From Bacteroidales bacterium (GTDB lineage: Bacteria > Bacteroidota > Bacteroidia > Bacteroidales > UBA12077): a stretch of 6,500 nt of DNA. The translations under genes were made by a program, and so were the position numbers. The notes under the pieces are model-generated. The model saw only the letters and a program-made list of their open reading frames with translations. It was not told where the DNA came from and did no database searches. Below, piece after piece: positions 1-6,500 of the stretch. Positions within the stretch are counted from its first letter, which is position 1, and every line of letters begins with the position of its first letter. The stretch spans positions 1-6,500 of the forward strand of contig JAUVLS010000078.1 of the NCBI GenBank assembly GCA_030600625.1. Direction: 5' to 3'.

Positions 1-415
1 AGTTTCCTCTTTCCTGAACAAATCCTCTTGCTTTCTCAACATATTCCCAGTAAACAATATAAATTTCCGATAATTTAACTTCTTTATTTTGAAGACGTTT
101 TACTTCAGATTCATACATTGAAATTGTTGAATATGCCCAACATGATCCTGCATTTCCCTGAGATATTACCGGATTAACCCATTCTCTTTTATATAAGTGA
201 ATTTTATTTGGCAATTCTAATCCTGAATGATCCATCAAAAACTTTTTTTCCTTCTTCTCAGGATTTAGTTTTTCTTTAACTTCAGAAACATCCTTCAAAA
301 TAAAGTTTTGATAAAATCCTGCTTTGTATTCTTCAAAAACAGTTTTATCCTTCTTCTGTGAAAATGCATTAATTGCAAAAACAGAAATTGTTAAAAACAA
401 TAATATTTTTTTCAT
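1..415 (-). CDS. C1-family (papain-like) cysteine peptidase, bleomycin hydrolase/aminopeptidase C-like, N-terminal part
   Basis: This open frame runs from an ATG at 415 off the left edge of the window, giving 138 codons with no stop; the C-terminus is missing only because the window ends. Residues 1-19 are a signal peptide (MKKILLFLTISVFAINAFS, followed by Q20), so the product is probably exported to the periplasm or beyond. Residues 86-97 read QGNAGSCWAYST, the active-site block of clan CA/C1 peptidases, with oxyanion-hole Gln86 and nucleophile Cys92. The following LSEIYIVYWEYVEKA (about 116-130) matches the helix after the active site in bleomycin hydrolase/PepC-like members, which supports that subfamily over ordinary cathepsins. 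The catalytic His and Asn would lie beyond the edge. It starts 51 bases after rnz, and a TATTTTTG motif in that gap may give it its own promoter. The C1 fold is near certain from the motif; substrate and exact subfamily are inferred. Confidence 0.85.
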   Translation of the reverse strand, partial: MKKILLFLTISVFAINAFSQKKDKTVFEEYKAGFYQNFILKDVSEVKEKLNPEKKEKKFLMDHSGLELPNKIHLYKREWVNPVISQGNAGSCWAYSTISMYESEVKRLQNKEVKLSEIYIVYWEYVEKARGFVQERGN

Positions 416-452
416 TTTTATGGTTTTATGGTTTAATTAATATTAGAAGATT

Positions 453-460
453 CAAAAATA
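453..460 (-). promoter_or_regulatory. Possible -7 box for the C1 peptidase gene
   Basis: TATTTTTG on the minus strand, identical to the box before rpsA, lies 37 bases upstream of the peptidase ATG, within the 51-base gap after rnz. No good -33 TTTG is seen, so it may be chance. If real, the peptidase is transcribed separately from the rpsA-STAS-rnz cluster. Confidence 0.3.
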
Positions 461-466
461 CAATAT

Positions 467-1396
467 TTAATTTTCTCTTGTTAGTTCTACTATATGCTTT
501 TCACCATCTTCAGCAGAATATGTATTTGGGAACAAGTCCCTGGCCTCACTTATAATTGGACTTACATCTTTGTACCTTGCTGAAAAATGACCTACAATTA
601 ATTTTCCTACATTGGCTTTCTTTGCAATTTTTGCTGCATCTTCGGATGTTGAGTGATAAGTTAATTTTGCCTGGTGTTTCATATTTTTAGCAAAAGTAGC
701 TTCATGAAATAGTAAATCAACATCTTTAATTATAGGGATTATCTTTTCTGAGTAGGCTGTATCTGTGCAGTAGGCATAAGATCTTATTTTATATGGAGGT
801 AAAGTTAATTTATCATTCGGAACAACATCACCATTATTATTAATAAAATCTTCACCTTCTTTAATGTCTTGAATTTTGCTAATTGGAATTTTGTAATCCT
901 CAACAACATTTTTTCTCAAGTTTCTTAAATGTGGTTTTTCAGTAAACTTAAACCCGCATGTAGGAATTCGATGTTTTAAGGGTATTGTTTCAACTTTAAC
1001 TTTATTATCTTCATAAATTAGCTCACTAACTTTATGTTTTAAATGATGATATATTATTTTGAATGACATGGTTCTTTCAAAGTACTCGATGTGCCTGTTT
1101 AGGATATTTTCCAATTCAGGATGAGCATATATATGTAAATCTTTATCACGATTAAGTAGATTAAATGTTGAAATTAAACCAAACAAGCCAAAAATGTGAT
1201 CTCCATGTAAATGACTTATAAAAATATGATCAATTTTTCCAAACCGTATTTTGTTTTTTCTGATTTGAATTTGCGTTCCTTCGCCACAGTCAACTAAAAA
1301 AAATCGCTCATGTACATTTAGCACATGAGCGGTTAAGTTTCTTTTCGAAGTTGGAACAGCAGAACTGCTTCCTAATATTGTTAATTCAAAAGTCAA
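467..1396 (-). CDS. rnz: Ribonuclease Z (tRNA 3'-endonuclease)
   Basis: The 309-residue product is the usual length of the short-form bacterial RNase Z, a zinc-dependent metallo-beta-lactamase-fold endonuclease that removes 3' trailers from tRNA precursors in the cytoplasm. The N-terminus ELTILGSSSAVPT (4-16) and LVDCGEGTQIQ (34-44) are family signatures. The metal-binding motif HLHGDH is at 62-67. Further expected ligand or catalytic residues are His142 (LKHRIPTCGF), Asp212 (YCTDTAYSE), His248 (YHST) and His270 (GHFSARY). The region around 155-200 corresponds to the flexible exosite arm that grips the tRNA elbow. All key residues are present and no frameshift is seen. The ATG at 1396 puts the family N-terminus in place and lies 14 bases after the STAS gene stop, so the two are almost certainly co-transcribed. 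No Shine-Dalgarno sequence is visible, as usual in this phylum. Confidence 0.96.
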   Translation of the reverse strand: MTFELTILGSSSAVPTSKRNLTAHVLNVHERFFLVDCGEGTQIQIRKNKIRFGKIDHIFISHLHGDHIFGLFGLISTFNLLNRDKDLHIYAHPELENILNRHIEYFERTMSFKIIYHHLKHKVSELIYEDNKVKVETIPLKHRIPTCGFKFTEKPHLRNLRKNVVEDYKIPISKIQDIKEGEDFINNNGDVVPNDKLTLPPYKIRSYAYCTDTAYSEKIIPIIKDVDLLFHEATFAKNMKHQAKLTYHSTSEDAAKIAKKANVGKLIVGHFSARYKDVSPIISEARDLFPNTYSAEDGEKHIVELTREN

Positions 1397-1410
1397 ATTA
1401 AAAATTCAAT

Positions 1411-1782
1411 TTATTTATCATTGTTATTACGACCTTCTTCTTCGGTATTAACAATATCAACAGCTTCTTCGGTTGAATATGCAATATTCAAAACTGTATC
1501 CAACTGCGATATGGTGATTAATCTGTCAACAGCATCGTTTAAACCTGTTAAAACAAATGTTCCATTAGCATTTTTACAAAGACGATTAGCAACAAGAATA
1601 GCACTTAGACCTGATGAATCACAATATCTGCAATTACTTAAATCAAGTATAATATTCTTTTCTCCCTTACCAGAGATTAAAACTAATTCGGATTTCAAAC
1701 TTGGTGCAACATTCGTGTCAAGTTTTTCTTCCATTACTTGAATTAAAGTGTACTTTTCCAGTTTTTCAATCTTAAATTCCAT
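1411..1782 (-). CDS. STAS-domain protein, anti-sigma factor antagonist-like
   Basis: This 123-residue protein is a single STAS domain like SpoIIAA/RsbV. The diagnostic segment is ILDLSNCRYCDSSGLSAIL (45-63): a beta strand, then DSSG, whose Ser56/Ser57 is the site that an RsbW/SpoIIAB-type kinase phosphorylates in studied homologues. Downstream LTGLNDAVDRLITISQLDTV (78-97) matches the C-terminal half of the fold. The last dozen residues are acidic and Asn-rich and probably disordered. In known systems the unphosphorylated form binds an anti-sigma factor or another switch protein. No kinase, phosphatase or sigma factor gene lies in the window, so the partner is unknown. It sits between rpsA (29 bases upstream) and rnz (14 bases downstream), which suggests co-expression with translation and RNA-processing genes. 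The fold is secure; the regulatory role is inferred. Confidence 0.88.
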   Translation of the reverse strand: MEFKIEKLEKYTLIQVMEEKLDTNVAPSLKSELVLISGKGEKNIILDLSNCRYCDSSGLSAILVANRLCKNANGTFVLTGLNDAVDRLITISQLDTVLNIAYSTEEAVDIVNTEEEGRNNNDK

Positions 1783-1811
1783 TGTAATTAGTTTTTAATT
1801 AAAATAAAGAA

Positions 1812-4199
1812 CTATTCAGAAGCTTTCTTGTCACTTCCCTTATCAACCTTAGGTTTTTTCTCCTCGCCTGCCGGATCTACCTTATCGGCAGACAAGCTAG
1901 CAGGTTTCTCAGCTTCCTTCTTATCTTCTGCTTTATCTTCCTTTTTCTTAGCTTTTGGTTTTGCTGCAGGTTTAGCTTTCTTAGCTTCCTTCTTCTCTTC
2001 TACTTTATCTTCTACTTTATCTTCTTCCCCGCCTGCCGGACGGGCAGGTTTCTTAGCTTTTGGTTTTGCTGCAGGTTTAGCTTTCTTTACTTCTTTTTTC
2101 TTTTCGTCCTTCTTAGCTTCTTCCTTAGCATCCATTTCAGCTTTCTTATCAGCTATTTCTTTCTTCTGCATTTGTTCCATCTCATTCTTAAGCGATGCAA
2201 GCTCAGTAATATCTCCTAAAGTAGTCTTTTCTAAATTAGTTTTAACTTTCTTTACAGCTTTTTTATTAGAAGCAGCCTTTTGCTTTCTTTCTGCTGCCAC
2301 TTCCCCTCTTTTCTCATCTTCGAAAACTCTACTATGAGATAAGATTATTTTTTTAGATGATTTTGAAAATTCTATTACTTTAAAATCTAATTTCTCATCA
2401 GCTTTAGCTGAATTTCCGTCTTCTTTTACAAAATGTTTCGGAGTAACAAATCCCTCAACACCATATGGTAAAGCAATTACAGCTCCTTTATCAAACACAT
2501 CAATAACAGTACCTTCGTGAATTGAGCCTACGGTAAATACTGTTTCGAATACATCCCAAGGATTTTCTTCTAATTGCTTGTGTCCTAAGCTTAATCTACG
2601 ATTTTCTTTATCGACCTCTAAAACAACTACTTCAATACTTTCCCCAATGGAAGTAAATTCAGCAGGATGCTTAATTTTCTTAGTCCAAGAAAGATCTGAA
2701 ATATGAATTAAACCATCAACACCCTCTTCTATTTCAACAAATATACCAAAGTTAGTAAAGTTACGTACTGTAGCAGAATGCTTAGTTCCAACAGCATATT
2801 TCTCGTCTACATTACTCCATGGATCAGTCTTAAGTTGTTTAATACCTAAAGACATTTTTCTTTCTTCTCTATCAAGAGTAAGAATTTGTGCTTCAATATT
2901 GTCGTTAACTTGTAAAAATTCTTGTGCACTTCTTAAGTGCTGCGACCATGACATTTCAGAAACGTGAATTAGTCCCTCAACACCAGATTGAATTTCAACA
3001 AATGCTCCATAATCAGCTAAAACAACAACTCTTCCTTTAACAGTATCACCAACTTTAATTTTCTTATCAAGTGAATCCCAAGGATGTGGAGTTAATTGTT
3101 TTAAACCAAGGGCAATACGTTTTTTCTCATCATCAAAATCAAGAATTACAACATTTAATTTTTGATCTAATTGAACCATTTCTTCCGGATGATTTACACG
3201 ACCCCAAGATAAATCTGTAATGTGGATTAATCCATCAACACCACCAAGATCGATAAATACACCATAAGAAGTTATATTTTTAACAGTTCCTTCAAGAACC
3301 TGACCTTTTTCTAATTTAGCAATAATTTCTTTCTTTTGTTGTTCTAATTCCTCTTCGATAAGAGCTTTGTGAGAAACAACAACATTTTTAAATTCATGAT
3401 TAATCTTAACAACCTTGAATTCCATAGTTTTCTCAACATAAACATCGTAGTCACGAATTGGTTTAACATCAATTTGCGAACCAGGTAAAAATGCTTCGAT
3501 GCCGAATACGTCAACGATCATACCACCTTTAGTACGACATTTAATAAAACCTTTAATAATTTCATCTTTTTCAAGAGCTTCATTTACACGATCCCAAGAA
3601 CGTAATGCTCTTGCTTTTTTATGAGAAAGTACTAACTGGCCATCTTTGTCTTCCTGACTTTCCACATAAACTTCCACTTTATCACCAGGTTTTAATTCCT
3701 GATTGTAGCGAAATTCATTTAAACTAACAATACCTTCAGATTTGTAACCAATATTAATTACAACTTCACGTTTGTTCATAGAAACAACTGTTCCATCAAT
3801 TACTTCGTTTTCAGTAATTGTTGAAAGAGTTTCATCATACATTTTCTCAAACTTTTCTCTTTCTTCAGTTTGAATAATTTCTTCATCATTTGTAATGTTA
3901 TCCCAATCAAATTCATCACCAGGAGTAGCAAATTCTACAACAGATTTTTCTTTCTCGCCTGTTAGATCTGTCTTATCGGCAGACAAGCGAGCAGGCTTTT
4001 TATCTGCCCCGCCGGACGGACGGGCAGGTTTTCCTTCTACCTTTGCAGTTTCTTCAACCTTTACAGGCTCTTCAACTTTTGCAGTTTCTTCTACCTTTTC
4101 AGTTTCTTCAACTTTTGCAGGCTTATCAACTTTCACATTTTCCTTCTGCTCAACATTCTCGTTTTGCTCAACAGATTTATTCACTTCTTTTTCAGTCAT
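1812..4199 (-). CDS. rpsA: 30S ribosomal protein S1 with long low-complexity N- and C-terminal extensions
   Basis: S1 binds mRNA on the small ribosomal subunit. The 795-residue product is far longer than E. coli S1 (557). Six S1/OB-fold repeats occupy roughly 131-195, 212-280, 298-368, 384-455, 470-540 and 557-625. Repeats 3-5 are the most canonical, each with a GVFIDL/GAFVEI/GIFVEI strand followed by G(V)DGLIHI or GVEGLIHV and a DLSW or EMSW block. Residues 1-95 are an acidic tail with a six-residue KVEETA-type repeat. Residues about 640-795 are Lys/Ala/Glu-rich, with KKAKPAAKPKAKK occurring twice. Both tails carry in-frame GC-rich palindromic repeats encoding KPAR..GG or KPA(R/S)LSADK segments. 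TLGDITELASLK (660-671), just after the last S1 domain, may be the original conserved end. It starts at ATG 4199 without a Shine-Dalgarno, preceded by a good Bacteroidetes -7 box. It leads the STAS-rnz cluster. Confidence 0.97.
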   Translation of the reverse strand: MTEKEVNKSVEQNENVEQKENVKVDKPAKVEETEKVEETAKVEEPVKVEETAKVEGKPARPSGGADKKPARLSADKTDLTGEKEKSVVEFATPGDEFDWDNITNDEEIIQTEEREKFEKMYDETLSTITENEVIDGTVVSMNKREVVINIGYKSEGIVSLNEFRYNQELKPGDKVEVYVESQEDKDGQLVLSHKKARALRSWDRVNEALEKDEIIKGFIKCRTKGGMIVDVFGIEAFLPGSQIDVKPIRDYDVYVEKTMEFKVVKINHEFKNVVVSHKALIEEELEQQKKEIIAKLEKGQVLEGTVKNITSYGVFIDLGGVDGLIHITDLSWGRVNHPEEMVQLDQKLNVVILDFDDEKKRIALGLKQLTPHPWDSLDKKIKVGDTVKGRVVVLADYGAFVEIQSGVEGLIHVSEMSWSQHLRSAQEFLQVNDNIEAQILTLDREERKMSLGIKQLKTDPWSNVDEKYAVGTKHSATVRNFTNFGIFVEIEEGVDGLIHISDLSWTKKIKHPAEFTSIGESIEVVVLEVDKENRRLSLGHKQLEENPWDVFETVFTVGSIHEGTVIDVFDKGAVIALPYGVEGFVTPKHFVKEDGNSAKADEKLDFKVIEFSKSSKKIILSHSRVFEDEKRGEVAAERKQKAASNKKAVKKVKTNLEKTTLGDITELASLKNEMEQMQKKEIADKKAEMDAKEEAKKDEKKKEVKKAKPAAKPKAKKPARPAGGEEDKVEDKVEEKKEAKKAKPAAKPKAKKKEDKAEDKKEAEKPASLSADKVDPAGEEKKPKVDKGSDKKASE
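1863..1904 (-). repeat. GC-rich palindromic repeat, 42-base form, in the rpsA C-terminal tail (copy A1)
   Basis: In the coding sense it starts CCTGCTAG and ends CCGGCAGGCGAG, encoding P766 to E779 (PASLSADKVDPAGE). Its centre (1881-1896) is CTTGTCTGCCGATAAG, identical in copy A2; as mRNA this can fold into a 6-bp stem with one G-U pair and a UGCC loop. It differs from A2 at 7 of 42 positions. The ends match the 21-base form, as if 21 bases had been added in the middle. Confidence 0.75.
1944..2087 (-). repeat. Perfect 39-base direct repeat in the rpsA C-terminal tail
   Basis: Positions 1944-1982 and 2049-2087 are identical over 39 bases and offset by 105 bases (35 codons), so the frame is kept. 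Each copy encodes the KKAKPAAKPKAKK block. Identity at the DNA level, including synonymous sites, points to recent duplication. Each unit is followed by one of the palindromic repeats (B1 or A1). Confidence 0.85.
2028..2048 (-). repeat. GC-rich palindromic repeat, 21-base form, in the rpsA C-terminal tail (copy B1)
   Basis: It encodes P718 to G724 (PARPAGG). Arms CCTGCC and GGCAGG (6 bp, 5-base loop) lie at 2032-2037 and 2043-2048. An overlapping CCCG/CGGG pair gives an alternative fold. It stands out sharply in GC from the surrounding Lys/Ala/Glu-coding sequence, and it differs from copy B2 at two positions. Confidence 0.75.
3954..3995 (-). repeat. GC-rich palindromic repeat, 42-base form, in the rpsA N-terminal tail (copy A2)
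   Basis: It encodes P69 to E82 (PARLSADKTDLTGE) in the same frame and orientation as copy A1, 2 kb away. The 16-base core at 3972-3987 is identical to that of A1. It lies 12 bases from copy B2, so the two form a tandem pair. Outer CCTG/CAGG ends are retained. Confidence 0.75.
4008..4028 (-). repeat. GC-rich palindromic repeat, 21-base form, in the rpsA N-terminal tail (copy B2)
   Basis: It encodes P58 to G64 (PARPSGG). It shares CCTGCCCGTCCG and GGCGGG with copy B1. Extended arms CTGCCC and GGGCAG lie at 4004-4009 and 4022-4027. Confidence 0.75.
4035..4115 (-). repeat. 18-base degenerate tandem repeat in the rpsA N-terminal tail
   Basis: About four and a half units of a six-residue pattern (KVEETE, KVEETA, KVEEPV, KVEETA, KVEG) cover residues 29-56, directly before the palindromic pair B2/A2. 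The segment is acidic and likely disordered. Confidence 0.75.
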
Positions 4200-4260
4200 T
4201 TAAGTAATTTAATTAATTTTTAGTAAGTTAGACATTATATTTATATAGTAAATCAGTGTG

Positions 4261-4268
4261 CAAAAATA
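4261..4268 (-). promoter_or_regulatory. Probable -7 box of the rpsA promoter
   Basis: On the minus strand this reads TATTTTTG, an exact match to the Bacteroidetes -7 consensus TAnnTTTG. It lies 61 bases before the rpsA ATG, predicting a leader of roughly 50-55 nt. The expected -33 TTTG is only approximated by a T-run about 20 bases upstream. The region is very AT-rich, so a chance match is possible. Confidence 0.45.
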
Positions 4269-4342
4269 GAATTTTTATTTAATTATTTAAAAATAAAGAT
4301 ACTAAAAAAACCATATAGTAATCAAATTAGTAATCTATATTG

Positions 4343-4368
4343 TGACAAATACTTGCATTTATTTGTCA
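4343..4368. repeat. 9-bp perfect inverted repeat between the receiver gene and rpsA
   Basis: Arms TGACAAATA (4343-4351) and TATTTGTCA (4360-4368) flank an 8-base loop. It begins 17 bases after the receiver stop and lies about 75 bases upstream of the rpsA -7 box. No U-run follows on the minus strand, so it is not a classic intrinsic terminator. It could be a weak terminator or a binding site for a dimeric regulator. Confidence 0.5.
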
Positions 4369-4385
4369 AATAATATAATTTAAAG

Positions 4386-4748
4386 CTAAATCAGGTCATT
4401 AATTATTTTTTTCAATTTAATTCTATCTATAGGTTTTGTTAAGAACTCTGAAATTCCTTTTTGGTATAATTCATTTCTTAAATTTTCGTCATCCATTCCA
4501 GAAATAACAATTATTGAGACTTTACGATTATTTAATTTATGTTTTATCATGCTTATAAATTCTACTCCGGCTATGCCTGGCAAATTTAGGTCTGCTATAA
4601 CAAGATCCAGAATATTTCCTTTCTCAATAAAATCAATCGCCTCTAATGAATTTTCCGTTAGCATCAAATTATACTGATGGCACAATAATTTTTGTATTAT
4701 CTTTCGATAAATTATATCATCATCAATAATTAATATTTTCTTTTTCAT
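4386..4748 (-). CDS. Stand-alone CheY-like response regulator receiver protein
   Basis: The 120-residue product is one receiver domain with no output domain. The acidic pocket is Asp9-Asp10-Asp11 (IIDDD), the phospho-acceptor is Asp53 (VIADLNLPG), the switch Ser is Ser83 (VISG) and the conserved Lys is Lys105 (FLTKP), with the aromatic switch position filled by Phe102. All residues needed for phosphorylation and Mg2+ binding are present. Single-domain receivers work by docking to a target or by passing phosphoryl groups in a relay. No histidine kinase is in the window, so the input and target are unknown. The gene is transcribed toward rpsA, with 186 bases between its stop and the rpsA start. 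A separate rpsA promoter is likely, so common regulation is not established. Upstream lies a long intergenic region with palindromic elements. Confidence 0.9.
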   Translation of the reverse strand: MKKKILIIDDDIIYRKIIQKLLCHQYNLMLTENSLEAIDFIEKGNILDLVIADLNLPGIAGVEFISMIKHKLNNRKVSIIVISGMDDENLRNELYQKGISEFLTKPIDRIKLKKIINDLI

Positions 4749-4842
4749 TCGATACTAAATTATTCTTTATAAAGTTATAACATTTTGTATAAAACAGCAT
4801 TTATTTAATCAATAAAGTATTAATACCGTTTATTATTCAAAA

Positions 4843-4883
4843 CCTACCCGCCCGGTGTAACTGCTTAGAGTTGGCAGGCGGGT
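4843..4883. repeat. Intergenic relative of the rpsA palindromic repeats
   Basis: On the plus strand it begins CCTACCCGCCC and ends GGCAGGCGGGT, matching the two ends of the rpsA copies with an unrelated middle. Arms ACCCGCC (4846-4852) and GGCGGGT (4877-4883) are perfect, and an inner AACT/AGTT pair (4859-4862, 4869-4872) can extend the hairpin. The body up to 4882 is 40 bases, not a multiple of three, as expected where no reading frame constrains it. Confidence 0.65.
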
Positions 4884-4900
4884 GCCATATCTGTGAAAAA

Positions 4901-4908
4901 CAAATATA
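4901..4908 (-). promoter_or_regulatory. Possible -7 box for the receiver gene
   Basis: TATATTTG on the minus strand is an exact TAnnTTTG match, about 150 bases before the receiver ATG. No convincing -33 element is present. If used, the leader would include the palindromic element at 4843-4883. Confidence 0.3.
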
Positions 4909-4930
4909 GATTGAATATATAACGGCATTA

Positions 4931-4994
4931 ACCATTCTAAACTTTAAAGCACCATCCCGATTTAAACGGGACGACACTTTGAAGAAGAATTGGT
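4931..4994 (-). repeat. Extended hairpin element with a perfect 14-bp minus-strand RNA stem
   Basis: In minus-strand RNA the inner 35 bases (4946-4980) form a fully paired 14-bp stem, AAAGUGUCGUCCCG with CGGGAUGGUGCUUU, closed by a UUUAAAU loop. Four of the pairs are G-U, and on the plus strand these become A/C mismatches. Outer arms ACCATTCT (4931-4938) and AGAATTGGT (4986-4994) also pair with one bulge. It lies in the divergent gap, about 200 bases upstream of the receiver start. No T-run follows that would mark a terminator. It may be a dispersed palindromic repeat. Confidence 0.6.
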
Positions 4995-5025
4995 ATAAAA
5001 AGCATATTAAAAAATGTCAAAAAAA

Positions 5026-5056
5026 TTTAGTCTAAAGATAATTCTTAGTAAGTTCG
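5026..5056 (+). promoter_or_regulatory. Weak candidate promoter for ugd
   Basis: TTTA (5026-5029), then a 19-base spacer, then TAAGTTCG (5049-5056). Each element is one mismatch from the Bacteroidetes TTTG / TAnnTTTG pair, with suitable spacing, and it ends 49 bases before the ugd ATG. There is no better plus-strand match in the gap. Confidence 0.25.
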
Positions 5057-5105
5057 TAAACTTTTTTGAAACAAATCTGAAATAATAAATAAAATCATAT
5101 AAAAG

Positions 5106-6419
5106 ATGAAAATATCGATGGTAGGTACCGGATATGTAGGTTTAGTTTCCGGTACATGTTTTGCTGAAACAGGTGTTATGGTTACTTGTGTTGATGTAGA
5201 CAAAGAAAAAATAGATAATTTAAATAAAGGGATTATACCTATTTTCGAGCCGGGACTGGAGCCTATGGTTCAACGCAATGTTGAGATGAACAGGCTTTTC
5301 TTTACTACAAGTTTAAAAGAAAGTCTTGAAGGTACTGAAGCAATATTTATTGCAGTAGGTACTCCTCCTGACGAAGACGGAAGCGCCGATTTGCAATATG
5401 TAATTTCAGTAGCTCGTGAGATTGGTCAGCACATGACTGAATATCTTGTTGTTTTAACAAAAAGTACTGTACCTATCGGAACAGCAAAAAAGGTTAGGGC
5501 TGCTATTCAGGAAGAGCTTGACAAGCGAGATGTAAATATTCCTTTCGATGTTGCCTCAAACCCGGAATTTCTTAAAGAAGGCGATGCTATTAATGATTTT
5601 CTAAAACCTGATAGAATCGTTATTGGAACAGATTCGGAACAAGCCAGAGAAGTAATGAATCGTTTGTACAAACCATTTATCATGAAAAACAACCGTATTG
5701 TTTTCATGGATATTCCTTCGGCTGAGATGACCAAATATGCTGCTAATGCAATGCTTGCAACAAAAATCAGTTTTATGAACGATATTGCAAATCTTTGCGA
5801 AATAGTCGGAGCAGATATTACTTCAGTTCGTCGTGGTATTGGTAGTGATACTCGTATTGGATATCAATTTATATATGCAGGTGCAGGTTATGGAGGATCA
5901 TGTTTCCCTAAAGACGTGAAAGCATTAATTAAAACATCGGATCAAAACAAGCATTCACTAGAAGTTTTAAAAGCTGTTGAGGATGTTAATGACCGTCAGA
6001 AGTTGGTTTTATTCAATAAAGTAAGTAAGCATTTTAATGGCGATTTAAAAGGAAAAAGAATTGCTCTTTGGGGATTATCATTTAAACCAAACACGGATGA
6101 TATGCGCGAAGCTCCGGCATTGGTAATTATAGATAAATTAGTTGAAGCCGGAGCTACAGTAGTTGGATATGACCCTGTAGCAATGGAAGAATGTAAACGT
6201 ATAATTGGCGATAAAATTGAATATGCCAACGATCCTTATGAAGCAGTAAAAGATGCAGATGCTCTATTACTGATTACTGAATGGTCGGAATTTAGAGTTC
6301 CAAAATGGGAAGAAATGGAAGCCCTTATGAAAAACAAACTTGTTTTTGACGGACGTAATATTTATGAACCTGAAGATATGAAAAAATGGGGCTGGACATA
6401 TTACGGAATTGGACGATAA
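5106..6419 (+). CDS. ugd: UDP-glucose 6-dehydrogenase
   Basis: This cytoplasmic enzyme oxidises UDP-glucose to UDP-glucuronate with two NAD+, supplying a precursor for capsule, exopolysaccharide or lipopolysaccharide. The 437 residues match the usual bacterial length. The N-terminal Rossmann domain has GTGYVGLV (7-14) and a cofactor-binding Asp near CVDVD (28-32). Further signatures are VGTPPDEDGSADL (84-96), TKSTVPIGT (118-126), NPEFLKEGDA (152-161), and the central helix with Lys210 and Asn214 (EMTKYAANA). The catalytic Cys266 is in GYGGSCFPKD (261-270). The C-terminal UDP-binding domain shows LSFKPNTDDMREAP (325-338) and DGRNIY (415-420). It is complete and intact. The ATG at 5106 places the Rossmann strand at the N-terminus as expected. 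It is divergent from the receiver gene, and no other polysaccharide gene is visible. A UDP-mannosamine or GDP-mannose dehydrogenase is less likely given the C-terminal signatures. Confidence 0.95.
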   Translation: MKISMVGTGYVGLVSGTCFAETGVMVTCVDVDKEKIDNLNKGIIPIFEPGLEPMVQRNVEMNRLFFTTSLKESLEGTEAIFIAVGTPPDEDGSADLQYVISVAREIGQHMTEYLVVLTKSTVPIGTAKKVRAAIQEELDKRDVNIPFDVASNPEFLKEGDAINDFLKPDRIVIGTDSEQAREVMNRLYKPFIMKNNRIVFMDIPSAEMTKYAANAMLATKISFMNDIANLCEIVGADITSVRRGIGSDTRIGYQFIYAGAGYGGSCFPKDVKALIKTSDQNKHSLEVLKAVEDVNDRQKLVLFNKVSKHFNGDLKGKRIALWGLSFKPNTDDMREAPALVIIDKLVEAGATVVGYDPVAMEECKRIIGDKIEYANDPYEAVKDADALLLITEWSEFRVPKWEEMEALMKNKLVFDGRNIYEPEDMKKWGWTYYGIGR

Positions 6420-6500
6420 AATCATTATTTAACATGAGTTAGATCTAAAGAAAGCAATTTAAGGATATACAACAAATTAAATTACAATAAGTATTATAAT

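Follow-up and report, generated by a model that had tools for sequence, protein, structure and literature searches.

The S1 gene and its palindromic units

The window analysed here is a stretch of 6,500 nucleotides (nt) from a Bacteroidales bacterium (assembly GCA_030600625.1, contig JAUVLS010000078.1, positions 1 to 6,500), and its subject is a set of four short palindromic units lying in frame in the gene of ribosomal protein S1. The DNA is AT-rich and of Bacteroidales type, and carries genes for a metallo-beta-lactamase/tRNase Z-like protein, a STAS protein, S1, a response regulator and a UDP-glucose dehydrogenase. The S1 gene and its units are as follows:

1812..4199, minus strand: rpsA, ribosomal protein S1, 795 amino acids (aa), with six S1 stretches (Pfam) and long N- and C-terminal tails
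4008..4028, minus strand: 21-nt element CCTGCCCGTCCGTCCGGCGGG, residues 58-64, PARPSGG
3954..3995, minus strand: 42-nt element, residues 69-82, PARLSADKTDLTGE
2028..2048, minus strand: 21-nt element CCTGCCCGTCCGGCAGGCGGG, residues 718-724, PARPAGG
1863..1904, minus strand: 42-nt element at the C-end site, residues 766-779, PASLSADKVDPAGE

First of all, the four units are GC-rich, start with CCTGC, end with GGCGGG or GGCGAG, and are all read in the sense direction in codon phase 0. Their positions, their lengths of 21 or 42 nt, their shared ends, orientation and phase had been put forward in an original prediction, and all of these were confirmed on the sequence. The units are confined to the tails, outside residues ~92-680, which align with most relatives, and the tails contain tandem K/E-rich repeats whose length varies among relatives. 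It is argued below that the S1 units are probably copies of a family of very short palindromic insertion elements, which has spread in this Bacteroidales family and is also present in the wider phylum and in phages.

Filled and empty sites among relatives

The closest relative found for the window is the metagenome-assembled genome Bacteroidales bacterium CSMAG_3001 (locus L001, genome G001), with ~95% DNA identity over most of the window. The S1 tails of the window were aligned with those of G001, G066 and G072, and its N-terminal tail also with that of G071, whose contig ends within the gene. At 4008-4028, the window, G001 and G071 all carry the unit; G066 has a clean empty site, with GGAAAA running directly into GCAGAT, and G072 differs through other repeats. 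The unit at 2028-2048 of the window has no counterpart in G066; G001 has a shortened relic of it, and G072 a variant copy one codon off. At 3954-3995, the window and G071 have 42 nt, G001 has the 21-nt CCTGCTCGTACGACAGGCGAG, G066 has CCTGCTCGTACGACAGGCGAG with one change, and the unit is missing in G072; at 1863-1904, 42 nt are found in the window and G001, and the 21-nt CCTGCTCGTCCGGCAGGCGAG in G066 and G072. Because the same S1 sites hold 21 nt or 42 nt in different relatives, the long form is read as a 21-nt unit with a second one nested in it. That is to say, the earlier description of the 42-base form as the 21-base form plus a 21-base centre is borne out at both 42-nt sites. Among the closest S1 proteins (40 of 120 listed), segments such as KPARPAGG, KPARPTGE and KPASSAGE occur at varying tail positions.

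The same kind of difference is found in two essential enzymes. In glycyl-tRNA synthetase (GlyRS), 2 of 19 loci are filled (G001 and G072) and 17 are empty; the insert is exactly 21 nt, lies between ...AAA and AAAGA..., and repeats zero bases. In alanyl-tRNA synthetase (AlaRS), 5 of 24 loci are filled and 19 empty, and the insert always lies between GNWSFGD (or N) and YFKKEA; one filled locus (G074) has the 14-aa form, and two have decayed (PSIPASG, PAHPEVG). No target-site duplication was seen at the empty sites of S1, GlyRS and AlaRS, where the inserts are precise to the base. The alignment of orthologues, proposed earlier as a check for rpsA, shows whole units differing by presence or absence between relatives, and does so in all three genes. 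In G074, a single bin holds two differing GlyRS genes (L277/L295) and two differing AlaRS genes (L368/L382), and it is probably a mixture of two organisms.

An insert at one codon boundary, between GNWSFGD and YFK, is present in 13 of the 120 closest AlaRS proteins; it measures 7 aa in 12 of them and 14 aa in one. The other inserts of at least 5 aa relative to the reference are one N-terminal extension and four 5-aa C-terminal extensions, and no further internal insert was found in these 120 proteins. In a tree of 74 of them, built with the insert excluded and with the partial AlaRS of G001 not included, at least six changes are needed, five of them forced by well-supported branches, and the label is clustered (shuffled mean 12.2). 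Repeated hits or clearings at one boundary therefore point to a target preference or to the sole tolerated place. The corresponding segment is uninterrupted in a eukaryotic cytoplasmic AlaRS (4xem, which we take to be the human enzyme). An AlphaFold model of the AlaRS P0142 has a mean pLDDT of 75 and is uninformative on the loop, since pLDDT stays below 50 at residues 63-107, that is, across the insert region. The repeated change at this boundary amounts to a natural experiment on the tolerance of the catalytic domain.

Spread through genomes, family and phylum

In G001 (2.3 Mb), the 21-mer CCTGCCCGTCCGGCAGGCGGG has 31 matches with at most three mismatches, eight of them exact, against 0 for a reversed-pattern control, and the pattern CCTGC-N(4-34)-CAGGCGRG has 25 matches. 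The family of G001 is represented by 25 genomes, of which 16, counting G001 itself, match the 21-mer with at most two mismatches, up to 34 times per genome and 154 times in total, with no match for the controls. Four of 50 other Bacteroidales genomes have one match each. Of 395 genomes sampled evenly across the phylum, 18 (again including G001) match with at most one mismatch, with one control match overall. As a check on chance, no match was found with at most four mismatches in 1.38 Mb around S1 at 79 other Bacteroidales loci. The search for copies elsewhere in the genomes of relatives thus returned many rather than none.

One genome, G428, has 34 matches, but at the six places read the 21-mer is part of a larger repeat, in some cases within a hairpin loop; being copies of one repeat, these six are not independent. 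The repeat (L311, L328, L385, L386, L387, L388) is MITE-like (miniature inverted-repeat transposable element), has ends like CCCGAATTATGCA..TGCATAATTCGGG, and carries one or two 21-mers that have been co-amplified with it. In other genomes of the phylum, such as those of L316 and L324, the 21-mer lies within the loop of other palindromes (GAGCCCGCT..AGCGGG; CCCTTCGACTT..CGCTCAGGG).

Host genes and reading frames

For the analysis of reading frames, 193 family loci were scanned, which gave 82 independent 21-mers (at most three mismatches, deduplicated by flanks); these are the fetched loci and not all 154 matches of the genome scan, and an earlier count of 110 matches includes the same site in several relatives. 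Genes were taken as stop-to-stop open reading frames (ORFs) of at least 150 aa, or at least 120 aa for phages, and not from annotations. On this basis, 58 of the 82 copies lie within ORFs: 35 in sense phase 0, where they encode PARPAGG, 16 antisense and 7 in other sense phases. The excess of sense phase 0 is strong (binomial p 9e-14 against 1/6), and lysine and glutamate make up 52% of the residues within five positions of these inserts, compared with 20% across ORFs. The consensus 21-mer has zero stop codons in six frames, its junction codons cannot be stops and its length is a multiple of 3, so that an insertion leaves the ORF open and adds 7 or 14 residues.

Hosts were named by profile searches of 17 ORFs, some of which are fragments that fall under the curated cut-offs of the models. 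They include ribosomal proteins L17 and S16, the prolyl-, glycyl-, alanyl- and glutaminyl/glutamyl-tRNA synthetases, an EF-G-like protein, MutS2, a Dpp5-like peptidase, a PF02660 acyltransferase and an HdrA-like protein. The suggestion that same-frame copies might occur in other genes is therefore upheld by several unrelated ORFs. The common orientation and phase described for S1 hold there and for the 35 sense-phase-0 copies, but not for the copies that are antisense, in other frames or intergenic; likewise, a restriction to disordered tails is true within S1, but not in GlyRS, the EF-G-like protein or the catalytic domain of AlaRS.

In the HdrA-like protein, at least 2 of the 45 relatives listed have LSVRQAG between FEV[F/Y] and LQN, where most others have nothing, and this peptide is a different reading frame of the same 21-mer DNA. 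A second insert site lies ~10 residues on in the HdrA-like proteins P0241, P0269 and P0270, with differing segments such as EAMPDGRQ, and forms another insertion hotspot. Peptides resembling PVRQAG are also present in proteins of Patescibacteria.

Phage copies and target bias

Thirteen IMG/VR contigs hold the exact 21-mer, in 17 stretches altogether; most copies are on contigs with 2820306284 in their names, with up to ten exact copies in 13,963 bases (L516). Allowing two mismatches, the 17 stretches hold 53 places, of which 45 lie in ORFs: 19 in antisense phase 1, 8 in antisense phase 2, 7 in sense phase 0 and 11 in others. Ten ORFs named on L508, L515 and L516 are phage genes, and it is on these contigs alone that phage identity was checked; the genes bearing copies include those of a tape-measure protein (5 copies), two tail sheath proteins, a head maturation protease and an adenine-methylase-like protein. 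The 42-nt pattern had no match in the viral contigs.

Target preference was read from 46 independent phage sites (11 of the 17 stretches, with six single-copy GC-rich stretches excluded as possible chance matches) and from 16 sites in other parts of the phylum (19 of 27 loci, with the G428 repeats and some one-mismatch loci excluded). At the phage sites, the base after the insert is never A, which makes up 32% of the DNA, and is usually T or C, and the preceding bases tend to be T-T-A; at the sites from elsewhere in the phylum, the base after is again never A, and an A or a T precedes the insert. Among family sites outside sense phase 0 the phage pattern holds loosely, with A after the insert in 4 of 47. 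A test of single-strand hairpin movement gave a bias of TTA before and Y after the insert at the phage sites and no duplication, with the bias absent from the sense-phase-0 class. This departure is the least expected result of the analysis. Because the sense-phase-0 family sites break the target bias, one mechanism may not explain every copy, and we take this as two site classes, one shaped by the chemistry of insertion and the other dominated either by peptide-level selection or by a further route of spreading.

Structure of the 21-mer and the 42-mer

When the 21-mer is read as CCTG-CCCG-TCCGG-CAGG-CGGG, its second tetranucleotide varies together with its last (CCCG/CGGG, CTCG/CGAG, CCTG/CAGG). 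For this pair, 14 two-sided cells were counted compared with 4.5 in shuffles, and the covariation score is 0.192 compared with 0.137, with 0 of 500 shuffles as high; two of the five covariation measures are at shuffle level (pairs changed on both sides, 2 and 2.1; further pair types, 9 and 8.9). An interleaved structure A-B-A'-B' is suggestive only, since there are few changes, related to one another, among the 44 of 64 variants used (20 offset or singleton-looking forms were omitted). By minimum energy the consensus folds into a 6-bp stem, but a plain 6-bp hairpin was ruled out as the conserved structure, as its covariation does not exceed that of shuffles. Nesting of the second unit in the 42-mer turns CCCGCCTG/CAGGCGGG into one long stem.

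Mechanism and rival explanations

In the mechanism that we propose, a 21-nt unit would insert without target duplication, and a second 21-nt unit would insert into the first to give 42 nt. The unit may move as a single-stranded hairpin, as the absence of duplication, the target bias in phages and a few insertions in hairpin loops suggest. The mover would most likely be an HuH/Y1 transposase of the RAYT type (REP-associated tyrosine transposase, where REP stands for repetitive extragenic palindrome) acting in trans. Selection would then retain tolerated insertions, above all those that read PARPAGG in the sense direction within linkers rich in Lys and Glu, the S1 tails among them.

Several points weigh against an insertion family. 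Movement itself was not observed; its suggestion in the original prediction agrees with presence/absence and clean empty sites, but no enzyme could be tied to the 21-mer. The changes counted on the AlaRS tree may include losses besides gains. Flank stems of at least 6 occur at 4 of 95 sites compared with about 1 expected, so that loop targeting is weak overall. The base at +1 is a purine at 33 of 35 sense-phase-0 sites and at 14 of the 47 other family sites (Fisher p 1.3e-9). With at most four mismatches, the 21-mer flanks 0 of 60 Y1_Tnp loci, and 45 further loci of RAYT relatives gave one exact copy, two variants with 3-4 mismatches (L457, L480) and no flanking pair.

As a refinement of the preferred reading, the mover may be a RAYT (TnpAREP, HuH/Y1) that these same genomes encode and that acts in trans, with the 21-mer as a non-autonomous REP, an idea that we put forward tentatively. 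Y1_Tnp genes are present in 10 of 12 and in 8 of 8 genomes searched, and target duplication was not seen. The RAYT-like genes L442 (G072) and L486 (G071) have a related palindrome, CCTGCCT(G/A)ACGGCAGTCAGG, on both sides; at L486 (1225-1902, G071:C431), both flanking hairpins, CTCGTAGCA/TGCTACGAG, hold the palindrome CCTGCCTGACGGCAGTCAGG in their loop, and several intergenic 21-mers lie in the middle of CCTGCCT(G/A)ACGGCAGTCAGG. These arrangements point to a nesting of short palindromes around RAYTs and make a RAYT in trans the leading, unproven candidate. The absence of the 21-mer beside the 60 Y1_Tnp loci speaks against it, as does the missing GTAG/GTRG tag; in addition, G059, G063, G064 and G065 bear the 21-mer but yielded no relative of the L442 RAYT, although other Y1 genes were not sought there.

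Three further observations concern the RAYT genes. An exact 21-mer lies inside a broken RAYT-like gene (L483/L399, G073:C442:8403-8744), and at L480:1712 a related palindrome (4 mismatches) is near or within another. The RAYT-like genes L355, L455 and L458 (G066, G072) have a YIHNNP motif and are flanked by repeats of the CGACGTAG..CTACGCCGAAC type, which is probably a separate REP family.

It is somewhat unlikely that two processes were at work, namely transposition for the intergenic, antisense and phage copies, and, for the sense-phase-0 PARPAGG copies, linker recombination or template switching over short words (AAACCTGC), or favour as a linker peptide. The flanks of the sense-phase-0 family copies (AAR before and RA after), their missing target bias, the Lys/Glu content around them (0.52 compared with 0.20 in ORFs) and the lack of a sense-phase-0 preference on phage contigs (7 of 45 genic places) all fit this view. 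However, selection acting on insertions could yield the same flank bias, and the GlyRS and AlaRS sites lie outside repetitive linkers, yet there too the insert is the same, exactly 21 nt, and the empty sites are clean.

Functional sites held in place by selection, such as protein-binding sites, mRNA stability elements or termination hairpins, are an improbable explanation: the sequence is constant between distant members of the phylum, with covariation in one part, but the units come and go between close relatives in S1, GlyRS and AlaRS, and at AlaRS they decay to peptides that are no longer palindromic. Slippage or tandem duplication of low-complexity K/E/P/A tails, with the palindrome as a by-product of codon choice, would suit the K/E-rich repeats of varying length in S1 but is already contradicted, and highly improbable, given identical 21-mers in intergenic DNA, antisense, in other frames and in phage genes, and inserts in conserved folds (AlaRS).

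Returning to the insertion family, its fullest form remains doubtful. According to this, an interleaved 21-nt palindrome, stop-free in every frame, may move as single-stranded DNA into cell and phage genes and nest in 21-nt steps, and one bacterial family may have gained a second, sense-only class, a 7-residue linker cassette repeatedly added to S1, L17 and S16 and also entering one fixed boundary in the AlaRS catalytic domain; it would then be among the smallest self-spreading, protein-writing DNA known. Apart from this fullest form, the best reading is a REP/RPE-like family that appears to edit proteins in 7-residue steps, down to such basics as S1 and the tRNA synthetases. Indels of 7 or 14 aa in protein alignments of these bacteria can be mobile DNA and not a mark of shared ancestry.

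Other features of the window

Two features lie in the intergenic DNA of the window:

4846..4883, no strand: GC-rich palindrome ACCCGCC...GGCGGGT, with an inner AACT/AGTT arm pair, found by eye
about 4824..4992, no strand: ~170-bp block with ends like terminal inverted repeats (TIRs), TTAATACC..GGTATAA, containing the palindrome 4846-4883

The palindrome does not match the 21-mer and is perhaps a relative of the same kind as the S1 units. The block around it lies upstream of the gene for UDP-glucose dehydrogenase, is missing from the closest relative L001 and has the look of a MITE-like insertion. An Rfam search of the window gave 0 matches.

Comparison with known systems

Palindromic repeats that insert in frame in protein genes and keep the ORFs open are already known as Rickettsia palindromic elements (RPEs; PMC10969869, PMC3733652), whose length is given as ~150 bp in a review (PMC10969869). 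The 21-mer is likewise a palindromic repeat in frame within several unrelated ORFs that stay open, and the likeness to RPEs proposed in the original prediction is supported by in-frame palindromes, many genomic copies and the presence or absence of whole units. Compared by their published descriptions, the two differ in length (21 or 42 nt, against ~150 bp), in phylum and in the phage copies of the 21-mer.

Di Nocera et al. (2013) described GTAG and CGTC REPs, some of them in the ORFs of several species and some within other palindromes, in the text available (PMC3733652). The 21-mer is like a GTAG REP in being a repeated palindrome of the 20-40 nt size class, for which intragenic copies are known from the same text (PMC3733652). 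It is unlike one in that its consensus CCTGCCCGTCCGGCAGGCGGG is without GTAG/GTRG on either strand and that no RAYT is framed by it; moreover, the 21-mer is mostly in ORFs (58 of 82 places, among the fetched loci), whereas REPs are described there as mostly intergenic (PMC3733652), and an interleaved palindrome is suggested for the 21-mer. CGTC REPs occur in five phyla including Bacteroidetes, with intragenic copies and no dedicated transposase known, as far as the available text goes (PMC3733652), and the 21-mer resembles them as a short palindrome with intragenic copies. It was ruled out as a member of that family, having an internal CGTC and a stem CCTGCC/GGCAGG, not an 8-9 bp stem starting with A-T pairs. 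A plain MITE was also ruled out, with 21 or 42 nt in place of 70-300 bp with TIRs of 15-30 bp, and no target-site duplication.

As for the transposases, Quentin et al. (2018) assign subclass 2.6 of TnpAY1 to Bacteroidetes, with 'atypical secondary structures' (PMC6006769, as available in part). RAYT-like proteins of Bacteroidetes with dispersed copies of their flanking structures are common to both, and the motifs printed for the subclass, NH[LIV]H and YIHNNP (PMC6006769), are present, as seen by eye, in proteins of the L355/L458 type. L442 is close to this subclass but has SHIH and YLHNNP, and the flanking structures described for the subclass differ from the 21-mer.

Literature searches with the peptides and the 17-nt core as search words gave nothing relevant, and by titles and the start of abstracts no such element was reported in Bacteroidota, in a coverage that leaves most subscription journals outside. 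In summary, the family differs from RPEs in length, and lacks the REP tag, RAYT flanking, the CGTC tag and MITE features; what it has in common with known elements is in-frame insertion, as in RPEs, and a size like that of REPs. In-frame palindromic elements in Rickettsia and intragenic REPs in several species were already known. The family described here belongs to Bacteroidota and phages, is about sevenfold shorter than the RPEs as described (21 against ~150), and has essential genes in which filled and empty sites can be cleanly compared, so that the question of movement and protein building becomes testable.

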